This document shows positions 5,898 through 7,551 of a stretch of DNA of 17,842 nucleotides, in pieces (the first letter of the stretch is position 1; the number at the start of each line of letters is the position of its first letter). The position numbers and the translations under genes are program-made. A model generated the notes under the pieces. The model saw nothing but the letters and a program-made list of their open reading frames with translations, was not told the DNA's origin and made no database searches. Source of the DNA: Bacteroidales bacterium UBA4318 (GTDB lineage Bacteria; Bacteroidota; Bacteroidia; Bacteroidales; UBA932); the NCBI GenBank assembly GCA_002393895.1, contig DGUE01000082.1, forward strand, positions 1 through 17,842. The letters are read 5' to 3'.

Positions 5898-6797
5898 TTA
5901 TTGATGAGAGAAGGAGCGGCGGGGGCCTTCGGCGGTGCGCCAGAAGGCGGAGTCGAAGTCTTCGGGGTCCCGGGGGTTCAGATAGGGGCCGTCATGGTCC
6001 GGGCAGAATTCCAAATAGGTTATGGGGAGGCCCATTTCCAGAAACATGGTTTCGTAAAAGGTTTGGACTTCCCGCACCTCCACCGGCAGGGGCATGGTAC
6101 TGCCCCTGAGGGACGTGCCACCCGCGGCACGGAAGCGGGGGGACCGTTCCGAAGGAATGGTGGGGTGAGCGAAGCGAACTCCCGAAGGGGCAGTACCATA
6201 CCCCTGACCGTCAGAGTACAAATCAGTAGTCTCTGCGAGGATGGGAAGGCCATTGACGACAGCAACGGCGCGGGTGTATTCGAAGAGGAAGCGACTGTCC
6301 GTCTTGAGATGGATTATGCCGCCGGGACGAAGGAAATGACGGTAACGCTCCAGGAACATGGCCGAAGAAAGACGCTTGTTCTCGCTGGCGCGGAGCTGCG
6401 GATCCGAGAAGGTCAGCCATATTTCGGAAACTTCGCCAGGGCCGAAAAACGCAGTGATGAACTCGATACGGGTGCGAAGGAAAGCCACATTGCGCAGCCC
6501 CTCCTCCGTGGCAGTCTTGGCACCGCGCCAAAGACGCGCCCCCTTTATATCTACGCCTATATAGTTCTTGTCCGGATTGCGCCGGGCCAGCTCCAGGGTG
6601 TATTCCCCCTTGCCACAGCCAAGTTCCAGCACGATGGGTCCCTCATGCCCACCGAACATCTGCTCTATCCAGCGGCCCTTCACCGGATAATCGGCCAGAT
6701 TGAAGTAGCCATCTGCCAGCACCTCTTCGGCACTGGGTTGCAGAAGGCAGCTGAACGTCTCGTTCTCAGCGAATTTGCGTAGTTTACCGTGTCCCAT
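5898..6797 (-). CDS. trmB: tRNA (guanine-N7-)-methyltransferase, with a 40-codon palindromic repeat inserted in frame
   Basis: TrmB methylates G46 in the variable loop of tRNAs using S-adenosylmethionine. VLELGCGKGEYT (about residues 56-67) is the SAM-binding loop, GVDIKG (81-86) the end of the second strand, and TFSDPQ (129-134) the family motif in the form usual for Bacteroidota. LKTDSRF (164-170) and QTFYE (245-249) complete the fold. About residues 198-237, between TTDLYSDG and QTFYE, are encoded by the 120-bp repeat described separately. Relatives need only a short loop there. The insert keeps the frame and leaves all motifs intact, so the enzyme may still work. The C-terminal tail after CPD is also longer than usual. 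The start overlaps the end of the GldH-like gene by 14 nt. Length is 299 residues. Confidence 0.93.
   Translation of the reverse strand: MGHGKLRKFAENETFSCLLQPSAEEVLADGYFNLADYPVKGRWIEQMFGGHEGPIVLELGCGKGEYTLELARRNPDKNYIGVDIKGARLWRGAKTATEEGLRNVAFLRTRIEFITAFFGPGEVSEIWLTFSDPQLRASENKRLSSAMFLERYRHFLRPGGIIHLKTDSRFLFEYTRAVAVVNGLPILAETTDLYSDGQGYGTAPSGVRFAHPTIPSERSPRFRAAGGTSLRGSTMPLPVEVREVQTFYETMFLEMGLPITYLEFCPDHDGPYLNPRDPEDFDSAFWRTAEGPRRSFSHQ
6087..6206. repeat. 120-bp palindromic in-frame element, copy A (inside trmB)
   Basis: The arms 6087-6107 and 6186-6206 are inverted repeats of 21 bp with one mismatch (6093/6200), which is a G-U pair in the mRNA-sense strand. The central 90 bp (6102-6191) are identical to copy B at 7413-7502. 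Inside the core are further hairpins: GTGCC/GGCAC and ACCGTTCC/GGAATGGT, plus CCC-TTCG-GGG on the sense strand. The minus-strand core contains no TA dinucleotide and no TGA, so all three sense frames are open. The insert adds exactly 40 codons to trmB. Confidence 0.93.
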
Positions 6798-7551
6798 CGT
6801 TTGTCTTGCAGATTATTCCCAGCCCCCTGAAATCCTCCGGCGGATTAATTGGGGTAACTTGGATTGTTACAGCGGACCTGTAGAGATTTTCCCCATTTTC
6901 TATACAGGTAGGGGTGTTTTTGGGGGTACCTGTAGAGATTTCCGCAATATTCTCTACAGGTAGGGGGCTTTTAGGTGGTACCTGTAGAGATTTTGGGGTA
7001 TTTCCCGACAGGTCATCCGAAAAGCGTATGCCGCTGCGGTAGAGGGCGCGGTGCTCCCCTGCCGGGAACCAGACGTTTTCAGTCAAAAGGATGCTGTCGG
7101 GACCGTAGGTACTGCGCAGCTCTTCGCCGGGAGAATAAAGCCAAGTGACTGCCAACTGCAGGGGTTCGTCAAGGGGGGTGGTGTAGAAGGTCAGGTTGAA
7201 AGTAGATTCCTTCGCTTCGCTCGGAATGACAGAAGAAGACGGAATGGCAGAAGAAGATGGAATGACAGAAGACGGAATGGCAAATTCATACACGCCGCCA
7301 GGCGCATCCTCCACCCGGATGAACTGCTCCCACGACCCAGGCCGACTGCACGCCACGGCCATAACCAGCAGAATTGCCGAAACAAGGCAGCGTGCAGCAG
7401 AGGCAGAGCTGCGCCCCTGAGGGACGTGCCACCCGCGGCACGGAAGCGGGGGGACCGTTCCGAAGGAATGGTGGGGTGAGCGAAGCGAACTCCCGAAGGG
7501 GCGCAGCTCTGCCTCCGCGACAATTGGGGATACTCCTGCTCTATTGAACAT
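6784..7551 (-). CDS. Probable GldH-like lipoprotein, enlarged by three kinds of repeat (possibly degraded)
   Basis: The 255-residue frame contains a hydrophobic stretch ending in a lipobox-like AVAC (Cys68), then a soluble domain. Its position directly after ricT, the YRSGIRF segment and the closing FRGLGIICK resemble GldH, a lipoprotein of the gliding/type IX secretion system; the resemblance is weak. The start at 7551 is the only upstream ATG, 2 nt after ricT ends, but it leaves 54 residues before the signal core. About 40 of these come from the 120-bp element copy B. Residues about 91-116 derive from the REP-like repeat and its expansions, and about 180-225 from the 52-bp array. Removing these (40+26+46 residues) leaves roughly 143, close to a normal small GldH-like protein. 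All inserts keep the frame, yet export with such a long N-terminus is doubtful, so a decaying gene is possible. Confidence 0.6.
   Translation of the reverse strand: MFNRAGVSPIVAEAELRPFGSSLRSPHHSFGTVPPLPCRGWHVPQGRSSASAARCLVSAILLVMAVACSRPGSWEQFIRVEDAPGGVYEFAIPSSVIPSSSAIPSSSVIPSEAKESTFNLTFYTTPLDEPLQLAVTWLYSPGEELRSTYGPDSILLTENVWFPAGEHRALYRSGIRFSDDLSGNTPKSLQVPPKSPLPVENIAEISTGTPKNTPTCIENGENLYRSAVTIQVTPINPPEDFRGLGIICKTNDGTR
6876..7013. repeat. Array of three 34-bp palindromes at a 52-bp period
   Basis: ACCTGTAGAGA starts at 6876, 6928 and 6980, exactly 52 bp apart. Each unit is followed 23 bp later by its inverted copy: TCTATACAGGT (one mismatch), TCTCTACAGGT (perfect, 6951-6961), and a decayed arm ending in ACAGGT at 7013. 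Each palindrome is 34 bp with a 12-nt loop, and the two spacers are 18 bp, G- and T-rich and similar to each other. A 52-bp unit shifts the frame, but the whole array is 138 bp (46 codons), so the GldH-like frame stays open. Confidence 0.9.
7205..7230. repeat. REP-like 'GAGCGAAGCGAA' hairpin repeat
   Basis: GATTCC, then TTCGCTTCGCTC, then GGAATGAC form a short hairpin with ATTCC/GGAAT arms. From memory, sequences of the form 'ATTCCGAGCGAAGCGAAGGAAT' are dispersed in many bacterial genomes, including Bacteroidota. Here it encodes IPSEAKES in the GldH-like frame. The GAGCGAAGCGAA motif also occurs, in the opposite orientation, in both 120-bp elements (for example 6167-6178). Confidence 0.75.
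7223..7282. repeat. Tandem 18/18/15-bp expansion of the REP-like end
   Basis: GGAATGACA or GGAATGGCA recurs at 7223, 7241, 7259 and 7274, separated by AGAAGAAGA-type linkers, giving periods of 18, 18 and 15 bp. All are multiples of three, so the GldH-like protein gains an AIPSSSVIPSSS-like segment. The first unit is the right arm of the adjoining REP-like hairpin, so the tract probably arose by slippage from it. Confidence 0.85.
7398..7517. repeat. 120-bp palindromic in-frame element, copy B (5' end of the GldH-like gene)
   Basis: This copy lies exactly 1311 bp from copy A and has the same length. Arms 7398-7418 and 7497-7517 are complementary, with one mismatch at 7399/7516 that is again a G-U pair in the sense strand; pairing continues one further base outward (7397/7518). 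Its core 7413-7502 is identical to copy A, while the 7-bp segments at 7406-7412 and 7503-7509 differ from copy A at six positions each and remain perfectly complementary to each other. Both copies have the same orientation relative to their host genes, but are read in different frames. Confidence 0.93.

Follow-up and report, generated by a model that had tools for sequence, protein, structure and literature searches.

A probably mobile, protein-tolerated palindrome family with locus-specific stems and exchangeable cores in housekeeping genes of gut Bacteroidales

A dispersed family of palindromic elements was found in metagenome-assembled genomes (MAGs) of rumen and gut Bacteroidales. It comprises 71 sequence-distinct copies from 22 genomes, that of the window among them; by the window we mean the whole analysed stretch of 17,842 nucleotides (contig DGUE01000082.1). 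The copies lie in many housekeeping genes, mostly in frame and in both orientations. The stem is self-complementary at each locus and different between loci. Within a single locus, similar arms can enclose a core that is inverted, one that has been replaced module by module, or no core at all. These observations are probably best explained by a protein-tolerated mobile family resembling the Rickettsia palindromic elements (RPEs), in which template switching keeps the arms complementary and flips the core and in which cores are exchanged between copies. A sequence-only reading of the window had proposed both an RPE-like mobile palindrome and a core-exchanging cassette. The former was borne out in kind by the occurrence in many unrelated genes, in frame and in both orientations, the latter as a pattern, since cores are inverted between similar arms or replaced with the arms kept. 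No description of this Bacteroidales family was found in the literature searched.

The window carries two copies of 120 bp each, both in frame and, with all their parts, on the minus strand. Copy 1 (6087..6206) is located within trmB and consists of a gene-left arm of 21 bp (6186..6206), a core which by eye forms three short hairpins (6108..6185) and a gene-right arm of 21 bp complementary to the gene-left arm (6087..6107). Copy 2 (7398..7517) lies in the N-terminal region of a putative lipoprotein ORF and is built alike, with a gene-left arm of 21 bp (7497..7517), a core (7419..7496) and a gene-right arm of 21 bp (7398..7418), the last of which recurs with a truncated core in another genome (G013, L018). 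The 90-bp blocks at 6102..6191 and 7413..7502 are identical. As the sequence-only reading had claimed, there are exactly 16 differences between the copies and all of them fall within the outermost 15 nt of each arm, where seven double-sided compensated changes are accompanied by one G-T pair per copy (gene-sense strand). Watson-Crick or G-T pairing holds for all 21 outer pairs of each copy in the gene-sense strand. The DNA of both copies folds with z = -6.6, and 0 of 200 shuffles folded equally well; a chance origin of these palindromes is excluded.

The 90-bp core indeed lacks TA, TAA, TAG and TGA in the gene-sense strand, but its openness in all frames is nothing special across the cores of the family: all three element-strand frames are open in 41 of 59 distinct cores, and dinucleotide shuffles predict 56%. 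Stop-codon avoidance as a design feature was rejected because openness is near this compositional expectation. The length of 120 bp had furthermore been equated with an addition of 40 codons. Compared with insert-free alleles the net length is shorter, namely 99 bp in trmB (against the G002 allele) and 39 codons in the upstream ORF (against P0133, at the protein level), because the empty alleles already hold sequence resembling one arm.

Many copies with variable yet mostly self-complementary arms were found in other genomes, and the core is not unique to the window. Between 1 and 11 matches per genome were obtained across 21 genomes. The in-frame count was based on the 58 copies flanked on either side by 400 bp or more, and 47 of them are located in an open frame of at least 700 nt. 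Host genes include trmB, truB, rsgA, uvrA, polA, aroK and rnr. Strand calls based on the longest ORF are unreliable in this GC-rich DNA, the true strand being opposite for trmB (L095), rsgA (L023/L093) and probably the upstream ORF (L016). Therefore, orientation was taken only from the 45 of 71 copies with a gene strand fixed by homology or profile, which divide into 25 sense and 20 antisense copies and use several frames. An exact 20-mer search yielded 33 loci, of which 32 belong to Bacteroidales or Bacteroidia MAGs, one to a Pirellulales MAG and none to Rickettsiales. Plasmids showed just weak partial matches; among viral contigs a 22-mer query gave one partial match, to hairpin 1, and a 20-mer query gave none. 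The trmB insert is also present in P0002 (4 contigs) and in G019, and the upstream allele in P0130 (15 member sequences). Nearly all of these data come from metagenomes, and palindromes are easily misassembled.

In the typical element the stem measures about 15-28 bp and is largely specific to its locus; it encloses a core of about 80 bp, which can be read as three short hairpins. For the 71 copies the median pairing score of an arm was 18 with its own partner and 5 with the arms of other copies. Own-arm scores of at least 12 were reached by 57 copies (80%), compared to 4.4% of 2000 cross-copy pairings, and 14 copies scored below 12. A weak inner-stem consensus common to the copies (GGNAGGTAYTCCCC, by eye) and similar arms in four copies of genome G001 indicate that the locus does not account for the arms entirely. 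The inner tetranucleotide on the left, TTCG, appears as TGAG in 6 of 71 copies, and 5 of these 6 match the right-side CTCA, which may be a footprint of template switching. Same-site arm changes were tallied for the 28 of 61 same-site pairs that were comparable: 50 affected one side only, 92 were double-sided Watson-Crick and 29 were double-sided of another kind. The most divergent sites may represent independent insertions.

Inversion of a core between inverted repeats, as known for invertons, was observed in DNA and in proteins. The uvrA cores of two species (G337 and G140) are identical at 83 of 84 positions when one of them is flipped and at 24 of 84 as they stand (DNA), while the surrounding arms are identical at 16 of 17 and 14 of 17 positions. 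The TrmB proteins P0017 and P0002 carry opposite cores and are identical over 254 columns outside the loop (protein level). This TrmB comparison covered 120 listed of 5539 homologues, with a tree of 77 rows, and also included, between proteins identical or nearly so outside the loop, loss of the core (P0046 and P0075) and wholesale core replacement (P0024 and P0006). At the AroK site (G015 vs. G013) and the TruB site (G005 vs. G013) hairpin 3 is changed and the arms are nearly unchanged. Core modules resemble each other more within than between genomes: hairpin 3 is alike in 76 of 133 same-genome pairs versus 755 of 2290, and 0 of 2000 permutations reached so high a value. Core modules are also alike at the same site (hairpin 1 in 37 and hairpin 3 in 33 of 61 pairs), and much of the core pattern is therefore plain descent.

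From these patterns we infer that upkeep of the hairpin takes place in the DNA. Replication would stall at the hairpin and the nascent strand would switch template to the other arm, thereby repairing mismatches between the arms, so that arm changes would emerge compensated. The same switch may extend the stem into adjoining host sequence, and the nascent strand could return with the core inverted. Cores would also be copied between elements, by gene conversion or ectopic template switching; this most likely explains why the two window copies have identical cores and different arms.

A rather unlikely alternative is that the arms are made at each insertion: the element would enter as a core, and an inverted repeat of the neighbouring host flank would be produced by snap-back synthesis, one arm being original host sequence and the other its copy. 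This would account for core-less alleles that keep one arm-like stretch, such as G002 trmB with a close form of the gene-left arm (first 18 nt), the empty upstream-ORF alleles P0133 and P0134 with the right-arm side (protein level) and the RlmB-like gene of G065, which shows right-arm-like sequence when compared with filled G019. Furthermore, P0012-P0015 hold a second element whose right-arm peptide, GDTPA, agrees with the inverse complement of the flank that the window contains (by eye, protein). However, G002 trmB is more simply a loss: its identity to the window is 90.8% over 609 nt and 92.3% over 194 nt, against 88.8% over 900 nt for filled G019 with the identical core counted in. Deletion derivatives occur (L224, L184), and the inner arm resembles that of other copies and is therefore element-derived. 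Of 80 site look-ups 59 were usable, the 21 without anchor being left out, and the loop set of 31 leaves out 3 unparsed loci and 3 loops below 60 nt; the polarity of the empty alleles is mostly ambiguous. A non-systematic reading of individual sites gave no clean target-site duplication. The stricter rule that the host-derived arm is always element-left fitted several sites and was rejected, as P0133 and P0134 contradict it and several empty alleles resemble deletions.

Compensatory covariation is usually read as evidence for RNA structure, and a structured RNA module had been considered for the window copies. The hairpin would then act in the mRNA and selection on RNA pairing would yield the compensatory changes. 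We consider this very unlikely, in spite of the strong fold of both copies (z -6.6, DNA parameters) and of compensated changes in the arms and in inner hairpin 2. Stem mispairs in gene sense were G-T in 20 and A-C in 19 cases for the 45 strand-verified copies, and 18 and 20, respectively, with ORF-based strand. Thus, by either strand assignment there is no excess of G-U over A-C and selection on RNA structure is not indicated. The window gave no Rfam match at gathering thresholds, the 25 sense and 20 antisense copies use several frames, and a TrmB protein identical or nearly identical outside the loop lacks the insert. DNA template switching, which the sequence-only reading had left out of account, can keep arms complementary, and a compensated change therefore need not mean RNA selection. 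The family may serve as a warning: its compensatory covariation lacks the G-U signature to be expected of RNA structure, and DNA replication explains it better.

Also very unlikely is a dedicated cassette-exchange or inversion enzyme which reads the stem and swaps or flips cores, as in an intragenic inverton. Core flips and replacements in close relatives, with the arms fixed or similar, would suit such an enzyme, but the arms differ between loci, so that no common recognition site remains save the core edge. The search for an associated enzyme covered Y1_Tnp (PF01797) and found none: this domain occurs in 10 of the 15 genomes that bear the element and in 7 of the 15 that lack it. A RAYT or Y1 transposase as driver was rejected for this lack of association, judged by presence in 15 vs. 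15 genomes. A simple duplication within the window with arms altered by assembly error, suggested by identical cores 1.3 kb apart in metagenomic data, has practically no probability left, being refuted by independent genomes (71 sequence-distinct copies spread over 22 genomes, the window's counted in; trmB insert also in P0002 and G019, upstream allele in P0130).

Palindromes within protein-coding sequence are known above all from Rickettsia and Wolbachia. The comparisons that follow draw on excerpts of the cited sources. According to these, RPEs and Wolbachia palindromes are stem-loops of about 105-146 bp with terminal inverted repeats, lie in frame in unrelated conserved genes and are tolerated by the proteins, and an RPE is likewise reported in truB (PMC2229807, PMC10969869, PMC3733652); RPEs are reported to lose repeat identity over time (PMC6649704). 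The Bacteroidales element agrees with RPEs in length and in-frame position in conserved genes, a likeness of build. It differs in that it belongs to another phylum, has locus-specific arms that are kept complementary, and has a core that inverts and is replaced. GTAG- and CGTC-tagged REPs, RAYT-associated or orphan, are likewise short palindromes with many copies, some intragenic, and CGTC REPs are reported from Bacteroidetes, where they lack a dedicated transposase (PMC3733652). In the excerpts REPs are single or dimeric hairpins of 20-40 bp, whereas the element described here is a composite of about 120 bp with a variable outer stem and, given the Y1_Tnp counts above, without REP-transposase association.

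Terminal repeats of MITEs are normally common to the copies because the transposase reads them. In contrast, the outer stems of the Bacteroidales element differ by locus (median 5 vs. 18), except for the four G001 copies with similar arms and the weak inner consensus. Shared with MITEs are the short length, the absence of genes, terminal inverted repeats and the possibility of in-frame fusion, as excerpted (PMC10969869, PMC2229807). Coding palindromes of nematomorph mitochondria lie within coding genes, keep their arms complementary and have had template switching proposed for them; they are mitochondrial, and the excerpt mentions no shared mobile core (PMC6649704). In yeast and in RNA genes, template switching makes the arms of inverted repeats alike and flips spacers in coding DNA (PMC8604942), the same two outcomes as proposed here, and it yields multi-base compensatory changes (PMC8794818). 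The spacer inversions reported there altered 2-5 bp, versus an 84-bp core in a repeated mobile element here.

The family spans many species of one gut Bacteroidales genus and looks recently active, and proteins identical outside one loop differ wholly within it. It is possible, though we put this forward only tentatively, that exposed loops of housekeeping enzymes contain locus-specific palindromic sockets, between which a pool of stop-poor cores is constantly inverted, swapped and deleted by hairpin-driven template switching. If true, such a socket-and-cartridge arrangement would give otherwise identical proteins of one population different loops of 30-40 residues and would be a standing, transposase-free generator of protein loop diversity in a large gut Bacteroidales genus. 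Population sequencing could directly test how coding palindromes persist and move.

As to the host genes in the window, the name trmB (5898..6797, minus strand) is backed by its profile (NF001080, 243.8 bits, cut-off 132). The insert corresponds to residues 198-238, and in the AlphaFold2 model of TrmB residues 197-234 have a pLDDT below 50 at a model mean of 79.4. The upstream ORF (6784..7551, minus strand) encodes a lipobox-like AVAC after a hydrophobic stretch (by eye); its earlier designation as gldH found no backing from Pfam or NCBIfam profiles. The encoded insert of about 40 residues appears to be tolerated, its site being a predicted disordered loop or N-terminal extension. Within the same upstream ORF, a TGTC-type palindrome sits apart from the element of about 120 bp.

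Both copies of the roughly 120-bp palindrome, copy 1 at 6087-6206 and copy 2 at 7398-7517 (minus strand), consist of two arms enclosing a core that reads as three short hairpins (1-3). Their coordinates, the identical 90-bp core and the 16 compensated arm differences reported by the sequence-only reading were confirmed on the sequence. Folded as single-stranded DNA, each copy reached a z score of -6.6, and none of 200 shuffles was as good. The window trmB (5898-6797, minus strand), host of copy 1, differs from that of the relative G019 at 101 of 900 bases, none of which lies in the 90-bp core, a pattern that at sequence level looks like recent homogenisation or constraint. 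Among 71 copies the hairpin-2 type common to both window copies occurs elsewhere only in the G019 trmB.

Copy 2 lies in an upstream lipoprotein-like ORF (6784-7551, minus strand). The earlier name gldH for this ORF was not supported: neither NCBIfam (at 0.001) nor Pfam (even at E 10) gave a match to it. Close relatives differ strongly from each other in its N-terminal region. At 7205-7231 (minus strand) it contains an exact TGTCATTCCGAGCGAAGCGAAGGAATC, a REP-like palindrome, which we take to resemble the CGTC REPs. In G002, G337 and G238 the inner 24-mer of this palindrome is found in the RlmB/TrmH-like loop, which in other genomes contains the main element. The C-terminal part of the ORF (6876-7013) has three 34-nt units (ACCTGTAGAGA...ACAGGT), palindromic as judged by eye, that follow each other with a spacing of 52 bp.

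The core was also found in relatives: an exact core 20-mer matched 33 loci of the genome collection, 32 of them in MAGs titled as Bacteroidales or Bacteroidia (many of rumen origin), several with the right part of the element only. The remaining locus belongs to a Pirellulales MAG and has surroundings unlike the element. The 21 genomes that were the source of 21 core 20-mer loci contained 1-11 matches each. In the genus of G019, perhaps GTDB Cryptobacteroides, at least 38 of 200 sampled genomes had a match at 1e-4, which is a lower bound since at most about four candidates were scored per genome. Counting copies identical over the core and 20 nt on each side once (e.g. the DsbD-like copy of G010 and G337), we obtained 64 near-full distinct copies at first and 71 with stricter ends and more loci. 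A protein search with the TrmB insert alone yielded 16 proteins: seven TrmB, four of the upstream lipoprotein-like ORF, two shikimate kinases, two MtaB (P0008 identified by profile, P0009 by Pfam domains) and one other. One locus of G007 (L021) carries two copies 335 bp apart in near-repeated sequence with a repetitive reading frame.

Arms vary between copies and stay complementary within each. The median pairing score was 18 for a copy's own arms (≥12 in 57 of 71 copies) and 5 for arms of different copies (≥12 in 4.4% of 2000); thus, loci have their own stems. A weak consensus is common to the inner dozen arm bases, and four G001 copies have similar arms. Of the 61 pairs of copies at the same site in different genomes, 28 could be compared, giving 92 arm positions with two-sided Watson-Crick changes, 29 with other two-sided changes, 50 with one-sided changes and 333 unchanged. 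Some of the most divergent same-site pairs may represent separate insertions.

An open frame of ≥700 nt encloses 47 of the 58 copies (out of 64) that have ≥400 bp on both sides, the frame having to extend ≥60 nt to one side of the copy and ≥150 nt to the other. About 30% would be expected for insertion in random frames, assuming 90% coding; the test is rough because GC-rich DNA contains long spurious frames. Where homology or profile defined the strand (45 of 71 copies), the core was gene-sense in 25 and antisense in 20, and 34 anchored site sequences showed five combinations of orientation and frame. Hosts identified by profile include TruB, RsgA, an RlmB/TrmH-like enzyme, imidazolonepropionase, shikimate kinase, RsmG, UvrA, DNA polymerase I, RNase R, a DsbD-like protein, IspH/LytB and a PP-loop protein, and in several genes the element occupies the same loop in several species. 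In the AlphaFold2 model of TrmB (mean pLDDT 79.4) residues 197-234, coinciding with the insert, have a pLDDT <50, which poor alignment there also depresses. In the polA-like locus L084 of G010 the frame stops about 30 nt past the element, reflecting either a broken copy or an assembly error; the polA copy at L078 in the same genome is intact.

The core can be inverted or exchanged. The 84-bp uvrA cores of G337 and G140 are identical at 83 of 84 positions with one of them inverted and at 24 as they stand, while their arms agree at 16 of 17 (left) and 14 of 17 (right) positions. At the protein level, the TrmBs P0017 and P0002 do not differ in any of 254 columns outside the loop, yet their cores have opposite orientations; P0022 appears by eye to carry the window core flipped. 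P0046 and P0075 differ solely in presence of the insert and its edges, P0024 and P0006 in few residues plus a wholly different insert. P0017 has an additional insert inside its core; such in-frame, palindrome-like nested inserts also occur in uvrA of G010 (L098) and G183 (L194). At the AroK site (G015 vs. G013) and at the TruB site (G005 vs. G013) hairpin 3 is swapped, with hairpins 1-2 common and arms nearly so. Likeness of hairpin 3 was higher within genomes (76 of 133 pairs) than between them (755 of 2290), with 0 of 2000 permutations as high. The same direction was weaker for hairpin 1 (37 of 133 vs. 351 of 2290, p 0.0035) and hairpin 2 (19 of 133 vs. 174 of 2290, p 0.03). Same-site likeness of hairpins 1, 2 and 3 (37, 12 and 33 of 61 pairs) is as predicted by plain descent. 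Of the 33 distinct variants of hairpin 2, 21 retain an A-C opposition on the element strand, which would be G-T on the other.

Selection on mRNA pairing should leave G-U intermediates in the mRNA sense. No G-U excess was seen among stem mispairs, either with ORF-based strands (47 copies; 18 G-T, 20 A-C, 20 others) or in the strand-verified set (45 copies; 20 G-T, 19 A-C, 14 others). This balance, the occurrence in both orientations and in several frames, and an insert-less TrmB that is identical outside the loop speak against selected mRNA structure and, at sequence level, argue for a hairpin kept up in DNA. With moderate confidence we infer that template switching between the arms would keep them matched and invert the core. 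In the accessible text of the respective reports, such switching homogenises inverted-repeat arms and inverts spacers in coding DNA (PMC8604942), and creates multi-base compensatory changes (PMC8794818); here, both outcomes are present on one element. In five copies from several sites the left inner TTCG has become TGAG, which complements the right CTCA, an apparent template-switch footprint.

We conclude that this is a real family of coding palindromes like the Rickettsia palindromic elements (RPEs), whose arms match each other and are largely specific to the locus, and whose core can be inverted and exchanged. As far as the accessible text of PMC10969869, PMC2229807 and PMC3733652 goes, RPEs are the nearest known kind; the last also reports CGTC REPs from Bacteroidetes and REPs inside genes of several species. 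For RPEs, a loss of repeat identity over time is reported (PMC6649704, accessible part), whereas the Bacteroidales element shows the opposite. No description of the family was found in the open-licence papers searched, and as far as these searches reach it is undescribed.

Core-less alleles, as judged by eye, either retain one arm-like stretch (G002 trmB, P0133, P0134) or have fused arms (G140 trmB, G065 uvrA, G002 DsbD-like). The core-less trmB of G002 resembles that of the window more closely than the filled trmB of G019 does, so that loss is the simpler explanation for G002; partial deletion is suggested by the look of loci L224 and L184. Among the compared alleles there was no clean recent gain for which the outgroup was unambiguous.

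The TrmB loop was surveyed at 31 loci (that of the window and 30 others). Fold z scores ≤ -3 were obtained for 15 of the 25 parsed loops of ≥60 nt vs. 0 of 25 control stretches from the same genes. Some of these 15 contain palindromes that differ in sequence from the element and have perfect arms as long as 29 bp (27, 29 and 20 bp in L155, L174 and L153 of distant congeners). Several kinds of palindrome have landed in the TrmB loop. Another type of insert, its peptide resembling AAAGVIPVLAEKRLGQKSSGRHSQRSR, is found in the loops that the element uses in trmB (L146 of G013, L147 of G183) and the upstream ORF, and occurs in P0132, P0138 and P0144; it has 10-bp perfect arms and a weak fold excess only (z -1.2 and -1.9).
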